From NCBI GenBank assembly GCA_028033615.1, contig JAOFDG010000007.1:1-50160 (forward strand): 50,160 nucleotides of DNA, in the 5' to 3' direction. The notes under the pieces are model-generated. The model made no database searches. It had not been told where the DNA came from and saw only the letters and a program-made list of their open reading frames with translations. This stretch comes from Verrucomicrobiales bacterium (lineage in GTDB: Bacteria > Verrucomicrobiota > Verrucomicrobiia > Verrucomicrobiales > DEV007). This document shows positions 13,097 to 40,838 of the stretch, piece by piece (position 1 is the stretch's first letter; every line of letters begins with the position of its first letter). The translations under genes were made by a program, and so were the position numbers.

Positions 13097-14026
13097 TTAT
13101 TTAGCTTGAGCACATATATCACCCATAACAGCATAAACTTCTGTACCATTTTCACTATGCTCCAAAAGGTCAGATGAAAAGGTAACTTTTTTGGGTTCTG
13201 TAAGGACAATCGTCATAGAACCACCAAAACTAAAATATCCCTTTTCTTGCCCCTTTAAAATATTGCCCTGTTGGTATGTCTGCTCTATACACCCGACACA
13301 AGTGGCACCAATCTCTAAAAGGCAAATATTACCAAAGGTATCTGATTTTAATTCAGTAATTGATCGCTTATTCTGCCAAAGATAAGAGATGTTTTTTTTC
13401 AATGCCAAAGGATTTACTGAATACAAATGTCCATTAATTAACTCAGCAGTTGAAGCCACTCCCTGACATGGAAAATGAAATCTATGGTAGTCGGTAGGAC
13501 ATAGCCGAGAAATGAGAGCAGAACCATATTTGAACCTCTCTGCCCTTTTCTTAGATCCTAGAAGACTGTTCAAGTCAAATGATTGACCTTTTGCCCAAAT
13601 GTTTTGTTTAAAAGATAGATCTTTCACAACAATATGACGACCATCTGCAGGAAAAACTAATTCATTTTGTTCACCTGTGATCGGTCGAGATTCAGTCTTT
13701 AATTTTCTTGAGAAAAAATCATTAAAACTTCGAAATGATTCTGGCCTATCAAGAAACAAACTAGAATCCAAATTATACTCTGAGATGAAAGGAACTATTT
13801 TTTCTACCGAATGATCGGACGACATCCTAAAGCCGTACCACTTAGAGAATATCGCCCTCTTTACCGCAGCCCAAAGAGCTAATTTACCTAAAGGGTTTCC
13901 ATAAATAAACTTGAGATAAGACTCTCCATATATCGCTTCAGTTTCAATTTGGCTAGTATAGCGATTGTAAAATCTTACCGAATTATTAGATCCCATGAAT
14001 ACATTATCGTCCATTGACGATGACAT
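13097..14026 (-). CDS. psd: Phosphatidylserine decarboxylase
   Basis: A 309-residue proenzyme that converts phosphatidylserine to phosphatidylethanolamine at the inner membrane. The self-cleavage site is FGGSMT, with cleavage expected between Gly269 and Ser270 to make the pyruvoyl prosthetic group; the alpha chain would thus be about 40 residues. Other landmarks are FNDFFSRKLK (101-110), FPADGR with Asp128 and DYHRFHFP with His181/His184. The longer N-terminus and the FNDFFxR segment resemble the eukaryote-like (PSD-B, type II) branch rather than the short bacterial form. It is convergent with ispA, with only 4 bp between stops. Confidence 0.94.
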   Translation of the reverse strand: MSSSMDDNVFMGSNNSVRFYNRYTSQIETEAIYGESYLKFIYGNPLGKLALWAAVKRAIFSKWYGFRMSSDHSVEKIVPFISEYNLDSSLFLDRPESFRSFNDFFSRKLKTESRPITGEQNELVFPADGRHIVVKDLSFKQNIWAKGQSFDLNSLLGSKKRAERFKYGSALISRLCPTDYHRFHFPCQGVASTAELINGHLYSVNPLALKKNISYLWQNKRSITELKSDTFGNICLLEIGATCVGCIEQTYQQGNILKGQEKGYFSFGGSMTIVLTEPKKVTFSSDLLEHSENGTEVYAVMGDICAQAK

Positions 14027-14162: not shown

Positions 14163-14306
14163 ATTTACTCTCACTCTCTGCAAATATTAAAAGCAGGGCT
14201 CATGCCAAATGTAGAATTAATCATAGAAATCTTTCATTTTTTTACATCCGCAATAATGTCGTATAAACTGTCATCTCAAACTTTTCATAATTCCCGCACT
14301 ATCTGA

Positions 14307-17026: not shown

Positions 17027-17113
17027 ATGAATTTCAAACATTATGCTAAAATACTTGGCGTGAGGCTTGCTGATCCTGTATTCGAAACTAATATAAAGTC
17101 TCCATATTCCTAA
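17027..17113 (+). CDS. Possible 28-residue ORF upstream of acnB
   Basis: In the 175-bp gap between fetA and acnB there is an ATG-started frame of 28 codons (beginning MNFKHYAKILGVRLADPVFE and ending SPYS), stopping 33 bp before the acnB ATG. It has no Shine-Dalgarno, like its neighbours, and no recognised family. It could be a leader peptide of acnB or simply chance; the codon pattern is plausible but too short to judge. Apart from this the gap shows nothing distinctive. Confidence 0.2.
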   Translation: MNFKHYAKILGVRLADPVFETNIKSPYS

Positions 17114-17146: not shown

Positions 17147-19921
17147 ATGAGCATGTATCTAGAATACATTAAAGAAATTGAGGATCGAAAACCTCAAGGT
17201 TTACATCCTAAACCAATTGATAGTGGCAAGCTTACAGCCGAAATTATTACTCAAATAAAAGATCTACATAATGAACACAGGAGTGAATCTCTTAACTTTT
17301 TAATTTATAATACACTCCCTGGAACAACCGATGCCGCAGGAGAAAAAGCTAATTTCTTAGGAGAAATAATTTTGGGTGATTCTATTGTGGAAGAAATTTC
17401 ACAAGCATTTGCTTTCGAACTTTTATCCCAAATGAAAGGAGGCCCGTCCGTAGAAGTTCTTCTTAATTTGGCCCTTAGCGATGAAATACCAATTGCTGAG
17501 AAAGCGGCAAAGGTACTGAAAACTCAAATTTTCTTATATGAGGCAGACACTGAACGACTCAAAATAGCTTTTGAAGAAGGGAATAAGATTGCCAAGGAAG
17601 TTCTTGAAAGTTATGCCAAAGCAGAATTCTTCACAAAACTTCCAGAGTTGGCAGAAAAAATCGAAATAGTAACCTACATCGCTGGAGAGGGAGATATCTC
17701 CACTGATTTACTTTCTCCAGGAAAGGAGGCGCATTCTCGATCTGATCGAGAACTACATGGAAAGTGTATGATCTCTGAAGCTGCACAGAATGAAATTAAA
17801 GCGCTTCAAAAACAACACCCTAACAAAAGTGTTATGCTAATTGCAGAGAAAGGCACGATGGGAGTTGGGTCTTCGAGAATGTCAGGCATGAATAACGTCG
17901 CATTATGGACAGGTAAACAAGCAAGCCCCTATGTTCCATTTGTAAATATTTTTCCTATCGTTGCAGGAACAAACGGTATCTCACCAATATTTTTAACGAC
18001 AGTCAGCGTAACTGGCGGAATTGGCATCGACCTAAAAAACTGGGTTAAAAAGTTAGATGAAAAAGGAGAACCCGTCCTAGATGAAAAAGGAGAACCCGTA
18101 TTAGAGCAAGTCTACTCTGTAGAAACGGGAACCACTTTGACTATCAATACCAAAACAAAAAAATTATATAGTGAAGAAACAGAATTGGTTGATATCTCTT
18201 CAGCGTTAACTCCTCAAAAATTAGAATTTATAAAATCGGGAGGGTCATATGCAGTTGTTTTTGGTAAAAAACTCCAAAGCTATGCAGCTAGAACGTTAGG
18301 ATTAGAATTAGAACCTGTCTTTGCTAAGGCCAGAGAAATTTCGCATCAAGGGCAAGGCCTAACCGCAGTAGAAAAAATCTTTAACAAGAATGCAGTTGGA
18401 TTAACTGAAGGAATAATCTTACACGCTGGTTCTGATGTCAGGGTAGAAGTTAACATAGTAGGATCACAAGATACAACGGGCCTCATGACCTCTCAAGAAT
18501 TAGAGTCCATGGCAGCGACTATTATTTCACCTATTATTGATGCAGCTTATCAATCAGGTTGCCATACTGCTTCAGTATGGGACAAAAGAGCACAGGCCAA
18601 CATTCCAAAACTCATGAGTTTCATGAATAGGTTTGGACTCATTACGGCACGAGATCCAAAAGGCGAATATCACGCTATGACCGACGTCATACATAAGGTC
18701 TTAAATGATATCACTGTTAACGAATGGGCTATAATAATTGGTGGTGATTCTCATACCAGAATGTCTAAAGGAATCGCCTTTGGGGCCGATTCTGGAACTG
18801 TAGCCCTCGCCCTAGCTACAGGTGAAGCCACGATGCCTATTCCGGAATCCGTAAAAGTTACCTTTAAAGGAGACCTTAAACCTTATATGGATTTTCGTGA
18901 TGTAGTTCATGCAACACAATCTCAAATGTTGAAAAAGTTCGGTGAGAACGTCTTCCAAGGAAGAGTGATAGAGGTTCACATTGGAACATTGCCCTCAGAC
19001 CAAGCTTTTACCTTTACGGACTGGACTGCAGAAATGAAGGCAAAAGCTTCAATATGCATTTCTCAGGATGAAACGTTAATAGATTCACTAAAAATCGCTA
19101 TAGGTCGAATTCAAATAATGATCGATAAGGGGATGGATAATGAAAAACAGGTTTTACAAGCTTTAATTGATCAAGCGAACGAAAGAATTTTAGAAATAAC
19201 ATCGGGTGAGAAACCAGCCATAACACCTGATTCAAATGCCAAGTATTTTGCAGAATTTGTCGTCGACTTAAATCAAATCGTTGAGCCAATGATCGCCGAC
19301 CCTGATGTCCATAATGAGGATATTTCAAAACGCTACACTCACGATACGATTAGGGCTCTTTCTTATTACGAAGGAGAAAAAAAAGTGGACCTTGGCTTCG
19401 TAGGTTCATGCATGGTGCATAAGGGTGATTTAAAAATCGTTGCCCAAATGCTTAAGAATCTTGAAAAGAAAAGAGGTGAAGTCGATTTTAAAGCTCCGCT
19501 AGTGGTTGCAGCCCCTACTTACAACATCATTGAAGAGCTCAAAGACGAGGGAGATTGGAATATATTACAAAAATATTCTGGGTTTGAATTTAATGACAAC
19601 GACCCCAAAAATTCAGCACGACTAGAATACGATAACATGATGTATCTGGAAAGACCAGGTTGTAATCTATGTATGGGAAATCAAGAAAAAGCTGAAAAAG
19701 GCGATACAGTTATGGCAACATCAACCAGACTCTTCCAAGGAAGAGTTGTTGAAGACTCAGAACGAAAAAAAGGCGAGTCATTACTTTCTTCCACGCCGGT
19801 TGTAGTGCTTTCCGCAATACTTGGAAGAACACCAAGTTTTCAAGAATATGAAGTTGCAGTTGAGGGGGTCAACCTGACAAAGTTTTCTCCACCTGTAGAG
19901 GATTTAATCACGAGTTCATAA
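17147..19921 (+). CDS. acnB: Aconitate hydratase B
   Basis: A 924-residue AcnB, the bifunctional aconitase 2 / 2-methylisocitrate dehydratase of the TCA cycle. The N-terminal HEAT-like domain (about 1-160) is followed by the swivel domain, placed before the catalytic core as is usual for AcnB. The three 4Fe-4S cysteines are visible: one in VGSCMVHKG near residue 755 and two in PGCNLCMGNQEKAEKGDT near 835. IIGGDSHTRMSKGIAFGAD and HATQSQMLKKFG segments are also typical. A short duplicated segment, LDEKGEPV twice in a row, lies around residue 305 in a surface insert. Likely cytosolic; no signal. The start could be either Met of MSM. Confidence 0.97.
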   Translation: MSMYLEYIKEIEDRKPQGLHPKPIDSGKLTAEIITQIKDLHNEHRSESLNFLIYNTLPGTTDAAGEKANFLGEIILGDSIVEEISQAFAFELLSQMKGGPSVEVLLNLALSDEIPIAEKAAKVLKTQIFLYEADTERLKIAFEEGNKIAKEVLESYAKAEFFTKLPELAEKIEIVTYIAGEGDISTDLLSPGKEAHSRSDRELHGKCMISEAAQNEIKALQKQHPNKSVMLIAEKGTMGVGSSRMSGMNNVALWTGKQASPYVPFVNIFPIVAGTNGISPIFLTTVSVTGGIGIDLKNWVKKLDEKGEPVLDEKGEPVLEQVYSVETGTTLTINTKTKKLYSEETELVDISSALTPQKLEFIKSGGSYAVVFGKKLQSYAARTLGLELEPVFAKAREISHQGQGLTAVEKIFNKNAVGLTEGIILHAGSDVRVEVNIVGSQDTTGLMTSQELESMAATIISPIIDAAYQSGCHTASVWDKRAQANIPKLMSFMNRFGLITARDPKGEYHAMTDVIHKVLNDITVNEWAIIIGGDSHTRMSKGIAFGADSGTVALALATGEATMPIPESVKVTFKGDLKPYMDFRDVVHATQSQMLKKFGENVFQGRVIEVHIGTLPSDQAFTFTDWTAEMKAKASICISQDETLIDSLKIAIGRIQIMIDKGMDNEKQVLQALIDQANERILEITSGEKPAITPDSNAKYFAEFVVDLNQIVEPMIADPDVHNEDISKRYTHDTIRALSYYEGEKKVDLGFVGSCMVHKGDLKIVAQMLKNLEKKRGEVDFKAPLVVAAPTYNIIEELKDEGDWNILQKYSGFEFNDNDPKNSARLEYDNMMYLERPGCNLCMGNQEKAEKGDTVMATSTRLFQGRVVEDSERKKGESLLSSTPVVVLSAILGRTPSFQEYEVAVEGVNLTKFSPPVEDLITSS

Positions 19922-36281: not shown

Positions 36282-37802
36282 TCAAGCTTCGACTGTTGCA
36301 GTAGCTGGTGTAGGAGCTGCAGTTAAAGTTGATGTTTGAGCGTATGCTGGAGCTCCATGCTCCTCGACATCGAGACCTTTTGCTTCAGTTTCTACATCGA
36401 CTCGGATACCCAATGTGCCTTTTAGAATGGTGAAGACGATGGCTGAGAAGGCGAATGCTGCGCCGGCCACAAGTAGACTACCTACAACCTGTGTTACTAG
36501 GTTTGCATCTCCAAAAATTGCTACTGCCCAAGTTCCCCAAAGTCCGCAAACACCGTGAACAGATATTGCTCCAACAGGGTCATCAATCTTAAATTTATCC
36601 AGCCCAACGATTGAGAAAACTACGATAACACCTGCAATTAAGCCAACCAATATTGCAGATGGTATAGTCATAGCATCTGCACCAGCTGTAATACCAACTA
36701 GTCCGGCCAATATTCCGTTGAGAGCCATTGATAGGTCTGGCTTTTTCAAAAATAACCAGGAAATGATAATTGCGCCTAGTGCACCACCTGCAGCAGCGAG
36801 GGCAGTGGTTACAAAAACAAATGATACGCCATTAGCATCTCCACTCAAAACAGATCCACCATTGAATCCGAACCATCCGAGCCAGAGTAAGAAAACACCT
36901 ATCGTAGCTAACGGCATGTTACTTCCCAAAATAGGTTTAATGCCATCTTTAGTATATTTACCAGCACGAGGCCCAAGAATAATAACGCATGCAAGTGCCG
37001 CAAAACCTCCAAATGCATGAACAACGGTTGATCCAGCGAAATCATAGAAAGCTCCTCCTAGGAAATCTCCAAGAAATCCACCACCCCAGTGCCATGAACC
37101 GACAACTGGATATAGGAATCCGACCAGCAAAACAGCATAAATCATAAAGCTGCTTAGCTTAATTCTTTCAGCAACAGCACCAGAAACGATCGTTGCAGCA
37201 GTTGCAGCAAACATTGCTTGGAATATAAAGTCAGTCCACCAAGTATAAGAGGCATAAACTTCAGTCTGGTTAGCAATCATGGTTCCAGCACCAACATCAG
37301 ACATCCATCCCCACTTAAATATTCCAGCAGACCCTTCTTCAAAGCCTGGATAATGCGTATTAAAACCGAAAAAGTAGTAGGTTAACAATCCTGCCGAAAT
37401 GATGAAAACATTTTTAAATAGAATATTTACTGTGTTTTTTGATTGTGTAAGTCCTGATTCCAAAGTGGCAAATCCTAGGTGCATCGCAAAAACTAAAAAG
37501 GCCGAAATTAACAGCCAAAGATTATTCACTAGGAATGTACCGTAACCCGAAGTAGATGGATAAACGTCAGTGACAAAAGCTGCATCTGCTGCGGGATCTA
37601 GATCAACCTCAGCCTCAATGAGTGATTTTGCTTCTGCAAATAGTGCATCTGCATCACCTTCAAATTCACCTCCTTCGGCTACAGTTTTTACATATGCATC
37701 CCACAAGGGCGTTTCTGCGGAGGCAACCATGCCAAGCATCAGCGCCAGAAAAGCTGAAACACCTAAGTACTTCAACATGTTATTTAGTATCTTTGTTTTC
37801 AT
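36282..37802 (-). CDS. amt: Ammonium transporter
   Basis: A 506-residue Amt/MEP/Rh channel. A signal peptide (about 1-29) and an acidic periplasmic stretch of some 55 residues rich in Asp, Glu and Ala precede the eleven-helix core, which starts near GTFLVNNLWLLISAFLVF. Core landmarks: ATLESGLTQSKN, ESG-type conserved; FAGSTVVHAFGG with the first pore His; ISVHGVCGLWGTW with the second; GSWHWGGGFLG. The cytoplasmic tail is Ala/Pro/Thr-rich. It carries ammonium into the cell. No GlnK (PII) gene is adjacent. A sigma-54-type promoter lies about 105 bp upstream, consistent with induction under nitrogen limitation. Confidence 0.95.
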   Translation of the reverse strand: MKTKILNNMLKYLGVSAFLALMLGMVASAETPLWDAYVKTVAEGGEFEGDADALFAEAKSLIEAEVDLDPAADAAFVTDVYPSTSGYGTFLVNNLWLLISAFLVFAMHLGFATLESGLTQSKNTVNILFKNVFIISAGLLTYYFFGFNTHYPGFEEGSAGIFKWGWMSDVGAGTMIANQTEVYASYTWWTDFIFQAMFAATAATIVSGAVAERIKLSSFMIYAVLLVGFLYPVVGSWHWGGGFLGDFLGGAFYDFAGSTVVHAFGGFAALACVIILGPRAGKYTKDGIKPILGSNMPLATIGVFLLWLGWFGFNGGSVLSGDANGVSFVFVTTALAAAGGALGAIIISWLFLKKPDLSMALNGILAGLVGITAGADAMTIPSAILVGLIAGVIVVFSIVGLDKFKIDDPVGAISVHGVCGLWGTWAVAIFGDANLVTQVVGSLLVAGAAFAFSAIVFTILKGTLGIRVDVETEAKGLDVEEHGAPAYAQTSTLTAAPTPATATVEA

Positions 37803-37890: not shown

Positions 37891-37905
37891 GCATTAGTTA
37901 TATAA

Positions 37906-37921
37906 GCAGAGGCCGTGCCAA
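37906..37921 (-). promoter_or_regulatory. Sigma-54 (-24/-12) promoter of amt
   Basis: Read on the minus strand the sequence is TTGGCACGGCCTCTGC. This matches the RpoN consensus TGGCAC-N5-TTGC at all but one -12 base, and the diagnostic GG and GC doublets are separated by exactly 10 bp (GG at 37919-37918, GC at 37907-37906). It lies upstream of amt in the same direction, giving an untranslated leader of about 90 nt. RpoN control of ammonium transporters through NtrC-like activators is well known in Proteobacteria. Confidence 0.75.
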
Positions 37922-38039
37922 CTTTAAAAAAATGAATTTTGGTTTTCTTAAATATTTTTATTATGATTTTGTTAGTCGAAATGAATGTAGCTTTTAACTG
38001 GATTAAAAAACTATATATTTTTGTTAAATATATAAATGG

Positions 38040-38075
38040 ATTGGCCCCGAACCAATGACTTGGAACGGGGCCAAT
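38040..38075. promoter_or_regulatory. 36-bp interrupted dyad between the porin and amt genes
   Basis: Outer arms ATTGGCCCCG (38040-38049) and CGGGGCCAAT (38066-38075) are perfect; inner arms CCAA (38052-38055) and TTGG (38060-38063) are also perfect, with AA on both sides between them. It lies 98 bp after the porin stop and is centred about 137 bp upstream of the amt -24 element. It is thus either a transcript terminator for the porin gene (no T run on the minus strand) or an upstream activator site for the sigma-54 promoter. The remainder of the 371-bp gap (37803-38173) is AT-rich and shows no gene. Confidence 0.55.
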
Positions 38076-38173
38076 TAACCAACAAAACTTGTATTAAATA
38101 TATGATTAAAAACTTATAAAATTTGAAATAGGGTTTGAATTAATATTTATAACTTTGTTCAATTCGATATGAA

Positions 38174-38887
38174 TTAGAACCCAACTGTAAGAGACAGTCC
38201 GCTGAAAATGTCGTCTCCGTCATCTTCATAATCGTCAAGAGGGATATTAACACCAACATAAGGTGAAAGTGATGCAGTATCCGTCAAAGTGATAGGTATT
38301 CCGATAGTAAAAGTTAAAGCAGTTAGAGAATCACCATCGGCATCTCCAATCGCTCCACCAACGTCTACTGACATTGTATCAGTCAGATCAAATGAAGTTG
38401 AAGCTCCTACCTCGTAGTAAGCAGCCTCTAAATCAATGTCATAATAAATTCCAAGACTGAGATCAAAAGGACCTGCACTAGTGCCTAGGCCTAGACCAAA
38501 CTCAAGTGTACCATCTGCAGCTTCTGGATCTGGATAATAGTAGTAAGTTGCTCCAAGATCGACAGACATTTCACCCATAGAAGTGGAAAGACCTGCATAA
38601 ATGTCGAGCTCATCGTTACCTGCATCGTCTGCAACGTTCGCGTACCAAGCACCAACTCCTAGATCTAAACCATCTGTTAAAGTGGTAGACACATTTACAT
38701 CACTCCATAGGAGATCTTGTCCTAAGTTAGCACCTCTAAACATGTAATCAGTATCATAACCAACACTGACTTCTGCACCAATTGGTTCCGCAGTAGATTT
38801 TTCACCTGCAAAAGCAGGAACTAAAGCCAAAACGGCAGTGCATCCAAAGATTTTAGCTGTTTTTTCAGCAATTTGACGGATTTTCAT
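38174..38887 (-). CDS. Outer-membrane beta-barrel, TorF-type putative porin
   Basis: A 237-residue exported protein with a signal peptide ending near AFAGE (about residue 28). The mature part alternates short beta strands rich in Gly, Tyr and Asp, starting with AEVSVGYDTDYMFRGANLGQ and ending in the typical outer-membrane C-terminal Phe (LSLTVGF). The VGYDTDYMFRGxxxxxD..W..V.VS pattern is that of the TorF-like putative porins. About ten to twelve strands are suggested. It is strongly acidic. A sigma-54-type promoter about 90 bp upstream, like the one in front of amt, suggests it serves uptake of a nitrogen source; the solute is unknown. Confidence 0.78.
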   Translation of the reverse strand: MKIRQIAEKTAKIFGCTAVLALVPAFAGEKSTAEPIGAEVSVGYDTDYMFRGANLGQDLLWSDVNVSTTLTDGLDLGVGAWYANVADDAGNDELDIYAGLSTSMGEMSVDLGATYYYYPDPEAADGTLEFGLGLGTSAGPFDLSLGIYYDIDLEAAYYEVGASTSFDLTDTMSVDVGGAIGDADGDSLTALTFTIGIPITLTDTASLSPYVGVNIPLDDYEDDGDDIFSGLSLTVGF

Positions 38888-38975
38888 ATAATAGTTTTTA
38901 TTTTATAGTTATTTAAGTATCTGCTTTAAGTTTTTTTAGGCAGGGTTTGTTTTATGTATTGCAAAAGGTTAATTA

Positions 38976-38991
38976 GCACCTTCCATGCCAA
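38976..38991 (-). promoter_or_regulatory. Sigma-54 (-24/-12) promoter of the porin gene
   Basis: On the minus strand the sequence is TTGGCATGGAAGGTGC. The GG (38989-38988) and GC (38977-38976) doublets are exactly 10 bp apart and the -24 part is TTGGCA, as in the RpoN consensus; the -12 part is GTGC rather than TTGC. It points at the porin gene with a predicted leader of about 77 nt. The layout is the same as at amt. Confidence 0.65.
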
Positions 38992-39022: not shown

Positions 39023-39952
39023 TTAAGCTCTTGGATGAGCTTTCTTGTATGTCTTCTTAATCCTTTCAACACTAACGTGGGTATAGATCTGAGTCGTAGA
39101 AAGACTCGCATGCCCGAGCAAACTTTGAACACTCCTTAGGTCTGCTCCATTATCAAGTAAATGAGTAGCAAAGCTATGCCTTAATTTATGCGGGCTAACT
39201 CCAACGGGAAGATCTGCCAGCTGGGTGTACTTTTTTACGATATCTGAAACGGCTCGCGCAGATATTTTTTTCTTAGATTTACTTACGAAAAGTGGTCCTT
39301 CTTTAATCTTTGCCTGATGAAAATATTTGTTAAGTGCCTCTAGAGCATGAGATCCAACAGGCACTATTCTTTCCTTTGATCCTTTACCTTTAACTTTAAT
39401 AGTTTCATTGAAAAAATTAAAGTCACTAAACTTAAGTGTCGCTAATTCTGATAGCCTAAGACCCGTGCTGTAGAAAACCTCTAATATTGCTGCATCACGA
39501 GAAGCTGCCCACTTAGGCGCCTGCTTAGGCTGTTTGACATTAAATGGCAAAGCCAAAAGGTGTTCTACCTGTTTAATGGTGAGAACTAAAGGAAGAGACC
39601 TATTTGCTTTTGGGAGTTGTATATCTAGCAGTGGATTCAACTTCAAATTTCTCCTTCGTGTCAGATAACGAAAGAAACTCCTCAACGCCGAAAAATGTAG
39701 CCTTATCGTAGAACGCGATAATTCCCGCTTCATACATTCATATAAATATTCACGGAAATCGTCTGCTTTACAGTTGAACCATCCTTCAAATCCTTCAGAC
39801 CATGTTTTATACTCTCGCAACGAATGATTATAATTTCTTAACGTTCTCGGAGAAACATTTCTCTCAACATCAAGAAATTTAAGGAAATCATCTACAAGCT
39901 GATCTTCAGCTTTACTCTTATCTATTTCATCGCTTTTCTGATTTGAGAGCAT
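39023..39952 (-). CDS. Xer-type tyrosine recombinase
   Basis: A 309-residue site-specific recombinase when started at the ATG at 39952 (MLSNQKSDEIDKS). The open frame runs on to 40171, but that extra part lies over the hisF coding start and looks unlike the family. Residues about 18-110 are the SAM-like core-binding domain (FLKFLDVERNVSPRTLRNYN). The catalytic domain has STGLRLSELATL with the first Arg, KGSKERIVPV with the Lys, HKLRHSFATHLL with His-x-x-Arg, LGHASLSTTQIYTH with His and the nucleophile Tyr. The length and layout are those of XerC/XerD, which resolve chromosome dimers at dif; no integrase-associated genes are nearby, so a housekeeping role is likely. XerC versus XerD cannot be decided. 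Confidence 0.88.
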   Translation of the reverse strand: MLSNQKSDEIDKSKAEDQLVDDFLKFLDVERNVSPRTLRNYNHSLREYKTWSEGFEGWFNCKADDFREYLYECMKRELSRSTIRLHFSALRSFFRYLTRRRNLKLNPLLDIQLPKANRSLPLVLTIKQVEHLLALPFNVKQPKQAPKWAASRDAAILEVFYSTGLRLSELATLKFSDFNFFNETIKVKGKGSKERIVPVGSHALEALNKYFHQAKIKEGPLFVSKSKKKISARAVSDIVKKYTQLADLPVGVSPHKLRHSFATHLLDNGADLRSVQSLLGHASLSTTQIYTHVSVERIKKTYKKAHPRA

Positions 39953-40049
39953 GAATATAGTTATTTTATCACACTTTAGGCAAAGAGCCAGATAAGCAAT
40001 CAAGCTCGTCAATAACTTGACGTTAAGCGAACGCGAGGAATGTTGCTGT

Positions 40050-40838
40050 GTGTCAAACTCTGGACTAACAAAGCGAATTATACCATGCCTTGACGTAACA
40101 AATGGACGCGTCGTCAAGGGAACAAAGTTTTTAGAACTTCGTGATGCAGGTGATCCAGTCGAATGCGCCATCGCTTATGACGCACAGGGAGCAGACGAGC
40201 TCGTTTTTCTGGATATTACAGCTTCTTCAGATGAAAGAGAAACAATGGTAGACGTTGTTGAAAGAACAGCTGAGCAATGCTTTATGCCTCTGACGGTAGG
40301 AGGTGGTATTCGTGCAGTTGATGACATGAGAGTAATGCTGCGTGCAGGCGCCGATAAGGTTGGTATTAATACTGCAGCTGTTAAGAATCCTGAAATCATT
40401 TCAGAAGGAGCACGTGCATTCGGGTCGCAATGTATCGTTGTTGCAATAGACGCTAAAAAAAATCCTGAAACCAACTCTTGGCAAGTCTATACACACGGTG
40501 GCCGAACCCCAATTGATTTAGATGCTATTGAATGGGCTAAAAAAGTAGAAGACCTTGGTGCTGGAGAAATTCTCTTAACCAGTATGGATGCTGACGGAAC
40601 CAAAGATGGTTATGACATCGAATTAAATGCTAAAGTCAGCCAATCTTTAAATATTCCTGTGATAGCTAGCGGAGGTGCGGGTAAACTGGAGCATATGGCT
40701 GAAGTTTTAAATAAAGGCAAGGCTGATGCAGTTCTTGCAGCTAGTATTTTTCATTTTGGCGAATACACCGTATCAGATGTTAAAGATTACTTAGCAACAG
40801 AGGGGCTTCCTGTTCGCCGCACATTCGAAAAAATGTGA
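40050..40838 (+). CDS. hisF: Imidazole glycerol phosphate synthase cyclase subunit HisF
   Basis: A 262-residue HisF, the (beta-alpha)8 cyclase that with HisH makes imidazole glycerol phosphate and AICAR in histidine synthesis. The start [19 protein letters not shown] carries the catalytic Asp; [23 protein letters not shown], and the second Asp region in [15 protein letters not shown] are standard, as is [15 protein letters not shown]. No ATG precedes the domain: GTG at 40050 gives a normal N-terminus and has GAGGA 10 nt upstream, one of the few Shine-Dalgarno-like sites here; TTG at 40017 is less likely. No other his gene is adjacent. Its 3' end overlaps the convergent symporter gene by 52 bp. 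Confidence 0.95.

Follow-up and report, generated by a model that had tools for sequence, protein, structure and literature searches.

Predicted sigma-54 promoters of amt and a neighbouring barrel gene

Two adjacent minus-strand genes, encoding an ammonium transporter (amt) and an outer-membrane beta-barrel, were each found behind a predicted sigma-54 promoter in the window, the 50,160-nucleotide stretch of Verrucomicrobiales DNA analysed here. It is very probable that the two genes share a single nitrogen regulon of the sigma-54/NtrC type and that a duplicated Gcw_chp/TorF barrel was drawn into it. The amt gene (36282..37802, minus strand) encodes 506 amino acids and was assigned to the Amt/MEP/Rh ammonium transporters, as the cut-offs of both PF00909 (E = 2.7e-106) and TIGR00836 (364 bits, cut-off 343) were passed. 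The Amt domain is preceded by an additional N-terminal domain of roughly 90 amino acids, and the closest matches came from Verrucomicrobiales and Akkermansiaceae MAGs at 63-65% identity. The barrel gene (38174..38887, minus strand) encodes a Gcw_chp/TorF-type protein of 237 amino acids (PF09694, 41.9 bits, cut-off 24). Upstream of it was a xerC/xerD-like tyrosine recombinase ORF (39023..40171, minus strand; TIGR02224, E = 1.2e-95), which probably has its true start further in. The gene order was the same in relatives.

The promoter of amt was assigned to TTGGCACGGCCTCTGCT (37905..37921, minus strand) and that of the barrel to TTGGCATGGAAGGTGCT (38975..38991, minus strand). An earlier note on this DNA had described TTGGCA with GG-N10-GC spacing at 37906-37921 and 38976-38991, about 105 and 90 bp from the start codons. 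Both elements were found there. The minus-strand readings were TTGGCACGGCCTCTGC, 102 bp from the amt ATG (37802), and TTGGCATGGAAGGTGC, 87 bp from the barrel ATG (38887). The GG-N10-GC spacing of sigma-54 promoters was exact in both and lay inside TTGGCAC-N5-TTGCW.

The strength of the elements was evaluated with a sigma-54 weight matrix, whose frequencies follow the published consensus approximately. Against a maximum of 21.3, the amt site scored 19.7 and the barrel site 17.5. The best score per simulated window was 12.3-16.7 (n = 20), and both elements exceeded all 20. Among 8 million null positions, scores of at least 17.4 occurred at 0.0011 per kb per strand, or about 2e-4 per 200 bp upstream region, and a score of 19.7 did not occur. 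In a genome pattern search, TTGGCA-N7-TGC gave 12 exact matches in 1.65 Mb, where our own base-composition estimate of the chance expectation was about 8-9. By itself this pattern is thus about as common as base composition predicts, which would fit a chance resemblance. Since the pattern is not rare genome-wide, the evidence lies in position, full matrix score and conservation, not in the hexamer alone. Set against these, a chance resemblance is extremely improbable, and the scores together with the family-wide conservation ruled out a chance origin.

Conservation of the elements in relatives

The amt site scored at least 18.1 in all seven genus genomes holding this amt, and at least 16.5 in 23 of the 24 amt genes from other genera of the family. 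The sole exception was G015, whose upstream DNA is only partly present. In the case of the barrel, all six readable amt-linked copies had a sigma-54 site. TTGGCA(C/T)...AAGGTGCT was retained in five genomes while the surrounding region had diverged, and the sixth, near-identical genome (G043) had an undetermined base (N) inside the element. In G041 and G047, a different small gene directly upstream of the barrel promoter replaced the xerC end. The amt element was identical in the window genome (G000), G043 and G049, and the barrel element was also retained in them. Loss of the -24/-12 bases in close relatives had been named beforehand as an observation that would speak against promoter function; comparison of the upstream regions showed that these bases were kept. 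As judged from comparative sequence data, amt and the barrel each appear to carry a real, evolutionarily conserved sigma-54 promoter.

A separate observation was made at the loci of G047 and G042 (L194, L196). The amt behind the barrel was only about 62% identical to the window amt, and the barrels were 79-87% identical (compared with L145, L146 and L195). The locus seems to have kept its position, promoter and barrel and to have exchanged its amt.

Sigma-54 elements before other nitrogen genes, activators and rpoN

The same element was found before further nitrogen genes of the genus. It preceded glnA in 7/7 congeners (scores 16.0-19.7) and P-II in 5/5 (14.4-18.1); glnA and P-II were not found in the window assembly, and no linkage of P-II to amt is seen in the genus. 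A second amt had a site of 19.6 in G045, G046 and G048, so that three of four congeners had a strong one; the score in the window genome was only 14.9, and no site of at least 12.5 was detected in G041. NtrC-type activators were sought in the window genome, as the earlier note had proposed, and two intact GAFTGA activators were detected. One, a response regulator of the AAA+ type, has GAFTGA as well as a Fis-type helix-turn-helix and follows a PAS histidine kinase, which gives an NtrBC-like pair. The other has no NtrB beside it. Because the element precedes glnA, P-II and the second amt and an NtrBC-like pair is present, nitrogen status is the most likely signal. An NtrC-type activator would then switch on the barrel and amt under nitrogen shortage, in one regulon with glnA, P-II and the second amt. 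No dyad common to the upstream regions of the candidate nitrogen genes was found that could mark an enhancer site.

The earlier note had seen no other such element in the window. This was incorrect, as a third site, TTGGCATGAGCCCTGCT (14192..14208, minus strand), had the same TTGGCA and spacing and scored 18.1. It lies upstream of psd (13097..14026, minus strand; PF02666, E = 2.6e-50), which encodes phosphatidylserine decarboxylase, and was kept in seven of eight congeneric psd upstream regions with scores of 16.9-19.6. As psd is no nitrogen gene and has the same conserved element, sigma-54 does not appear to be nitrogen-only here. The psd site is a candidate for the same regulon or for another sigma-54 output. 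Directly downstream of the psd element, a AGAGTGAGAG block was also conserved in congeners.

The gene for sigma-54 itself, rpoN, was not found in the window assembly (54% complete), nor in the closest relatives G043 and G049. Its absence had been proposed as an observation that would refute sigma-54 control; the gene was indeed missing from this partial assembly, but it was present in 64 of 75 family genomes and 7 of 10 congeners. One explanation would be that rpoN was lost in the cluster of G000, G043 and G049 and that the promoters are relics, in line with the lack of a match in all three assemblies, one of which is 83% complete. However, the M48 protease gene, which adjoins rpoN in other congeners, was missing from the same three assemblies, which makes an assembly gap likelier than a loss. 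The identical amt elements, the retained barrel elements in all three and the two intact GAFTGA activators of the window genome also argue against relics. Loss of rpoN in this cluster was thus regarded as very unlikely.

Origin of the barrel gene and transcription units

The genus has a second barrel gene beside priA, about 65% identical to the amt-linked barrel. A sigma-54 site was present in none of five priA-linked barrels (G041, G044, G045, G046 and G049), in contrast to the six of six amt-linked ones. In the tree, the amt-linked barrels formed one group, with a support of 0.81 when the G044 copy was included and 0.99 when it was left out, and this group adjoined the priA-linked copies of the same genus, which indicates that the amt-linked barrel is a duplicate. 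Neither this amt nor its linked barrel was present in G045 and G046. The order of events suggested by these data is that the family-wide priA-linked barrel, which has no sigma-54 promoter, would have been duplicated, and that the copy would then have come between xerC and amt and under sigma-54. Strong sigma-54 sites also preceded family barrels not seen beside amt (L135, L137, L139 and L144). This meant that recruitment of the barrel family by sigma-54 was repeated, or is older than the genus.

The G044 bin, which is a mixed bin with 6% contamination, contained two versions of the locus. The order was xerC-site-amt in C12 (L230) and xerC-site-barrel-amt in C95 (L180). The two were 98.4% identical before the insertion point and 91.1% identical beyond it, and 15 bases overlapped at the junction. 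They differed by the clean insertion of a barrel where amt starts. The locus may show an outer-membrane gene as it joined, or left, an existing nitrogen promoter. In C95, the barrel and amt are separated by only about 60 bp, a gap into which no second promoter fits, so they should form one unit behind the amt promoter.

The arrangement in the window was different. About 370 bp, a conserved hairpin and the second promoter lie between the two genes, and a single barrel-amt operon was therefore disfavoured. The hairpin (38040..38075, minus strand) has no U-run and a predicted energy of -24 to -27.5 kcal/mol in six genomes, with compensating paired changes across congeners (GGCCCCG/CGGGGCC to GGCTCCG/CGGAGCC). 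It probably marks the 3' end of the barrel transcript, or serves in its processing, and divides two units. The barrel and amt would thus be adjacent yet separate transcription units, each transcribed from its own -24/-12 promoter by sigma-54 RNA polymerase. The footprinting in relatives, the lack of the element at paralogues not linked to amt, and the same element before glnA, P-II and the second amt together gave strong support to sigma-54 control of both genes, at the level of sequence.

Pairing of barrels with amt in other phyla

Eighty amt loci, which were fetched by similarity to this amt alone and are not a random sample, were searched with a profile of this barrel family. A barrel lay on the strand of the adjacent amt in 13 of the 80, often with P-II, and the same profile gave zero barrels in 218 kb of control loci. 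The MAGs or genomes behind these 13 loci carry the labels Verrucomicrobia, Kiritimatiellae, Acidobacteriota, Bacteroidota, Chlorobiota and Pseudomonadota. For L045, one of the 13, both barrel calls are doubtful, as the first overlaps amt and the second is weak. Some of the barrels are distant relatives, because not all of them passed the Pfam model. A plasmid collection searched with the barrel of a MAG labelled Pseudomonadota gave no match. In annotated proteobacterial genomes, TorF-type genes are common in the vicinity of glnK-amtB. No publication on a link between Gcw_chp/TorF and amt was found in a literature search that covered few subscription journals.

As barrels of this kind stand beside amt in several phyla, the link between them is wider than this lineage. 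The earlier note had proposed a nitrogen uptake route across both membranes in this lineage; its proposal was supported in part, for sigma-54 control of both genes. It is also possible, though we put this forward tentatively, that in several phyla Gcw_chp-type barrels serve Amt/P-II as dedicated partners in the outer membrane, within a two-membrane module for nitrogen uptake. Such a barrel would be a specific small channel, present only under nitrogen stress, that passes ammonium or small amines on to Amt.

These results also bear on whether the two genes share one signal. The promoters could be true sigma-54 promoters with the barrel under another activator or signal, such as envelope or carbon status, and the neighbours would then have no single nitrogen response. 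The second, NtrB-less activator, the sites at psd and at several family barrels away from amt, and the lack of a common enhancer dyad are consistent with this. However, in C95 of the G044 bin a single sigma-54 promoter precedes the barrel and amt, with about 60 bp between the two genes, the site is restricted among the barrels of the genus to the amt-linked copies, and barrels recur beside P-II-amt in other phyla. Separate signals were therefore considered unlikely, and a common nitrogen regulon was preferred.

Possible role of the barrel

The barrel protein has the characters of an outer-membrane barrel, namely a signal peptide, a C-terminal Phe (from the alignment) and 12 predicted strands, and its AlphaFold2 model also had 12 strands (pLDDT 84.4). 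It resembles the Gcw_chp (PF09694)/TorF (TIGR02001) family in these characters and in passing the Pfam cut-off. It differs in its TIGR02001 score of 39.3 bits, which was under the curated cut-off of 47.15 and indicates a divergent branch. For this reason the protein is labelled Gcw_chp-type and not a TorF member of TIGR02001. No tested function of the family was found in the literature search, and a PDB sequence search with the barrel gave no match. A structure search with the model returned the generic barrels FapF, OmpG, NanC (TM 0.56/0.62) and PcoB (TM 0.62/0.72). Because these matches were generic and their TM-scores modest, no substrate was assigned from them.

Control of this kind is already known: in Proteobacteria, sigma-54/NtrC governs glnA, glnK-amtB and porins. 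In the E. coli glnK-amtB/glnA regulon, sigma-54 -24/-12 promoters stand before glnA, P-II and amt, together with NtrBC (PMC3224663). The genomes analysed here are similar in having -24/-12 elements before the same genes and an NtrBC-like pair. They differ in being Verrucomicrobial, in having P-II and amt unlinked in the genus and in the addition of an outer-membrane barrel. The Burkholderia/Paraburkholderia porins BCAL3473, Bphy_4515 and Bphy_7819 change upon deletion of ntrC or rpoN, and BCAL3473 carries biological amines and has an imperfect promoter spacer (PMC5491218, PMC10117139, PMC5979394), in contrast to the exact spacing of the sites in the window. Here too outer-membrane channel genes share regulons with nitrogen uptake genes, but these porins are of another class than Gcw_chp and are not described beside amt. 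In P. aeruginosa, the GlnK-NtrB/NtrC-OprD system places a channel for nitrogenous solutes directly under a nitrogen two-component system; the evidence is binding of NtrC to oprD, and RpoN is not mentioned (PMC13029640). OprD is likewise an outer-membrane channel under nitrogen control, but it belongs to another channel family and has no linked amt.

With these systems as precedents, we infer that the barrel most likely raises outer-membrane permeability to small nitrogen compounds or ammonium, and Amt would move ammonium across the inner membrane. It is rather unlikely that the barrel is co-regulated with amt and yet is no nitrogen uptake channel, being a general or structural outer-membrane protein or serving export. 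Such a role would agree with the lack of a solved homologue by sequence and with the fold matches to generic barrels. Ammonium also crosses ordinary porins, and a special channel is not strictly required. However, the recurrence of such barrels beside amt and P-II in several phyla and the known NtrC-controlled amine or amino-acid porins speak against it. This alternative touches nothing but the role of the barrel, and what the preferred reading says about regulation could hold alongside it.

The uptake reading would connect this channel family with nitrogen scavenging and would give widespread barrels a testable role. The predicted regulon would also place a sigma-54 nitrogen response, comprising glnA, P-II, two amt genes and a porin, in Verrucomicrobial genomes. 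For bacteria of nutrient-poor waters, regulating how permeable the outer membrane is to nitrogen is a plausible limiting step, one seldom studied outside Proteobacteria.

Further sigma-54-like sites

Two weaker sites were noted. In the window, TTGGCGTGAGGCTTGCT (17055..17071, plus strand) scored 16.1 and lies about 75 bp before a gene for an aconitase B (acnB-like; 17147..19921, plus strand). In G045, a sigma-54-like site TTGGCAGGAAACCTGCT (L179:3409-3425, minus strand) scored 15.8 about 55 bp upstream of rpoN, and autoregulation of rpoN is possible in that genome.
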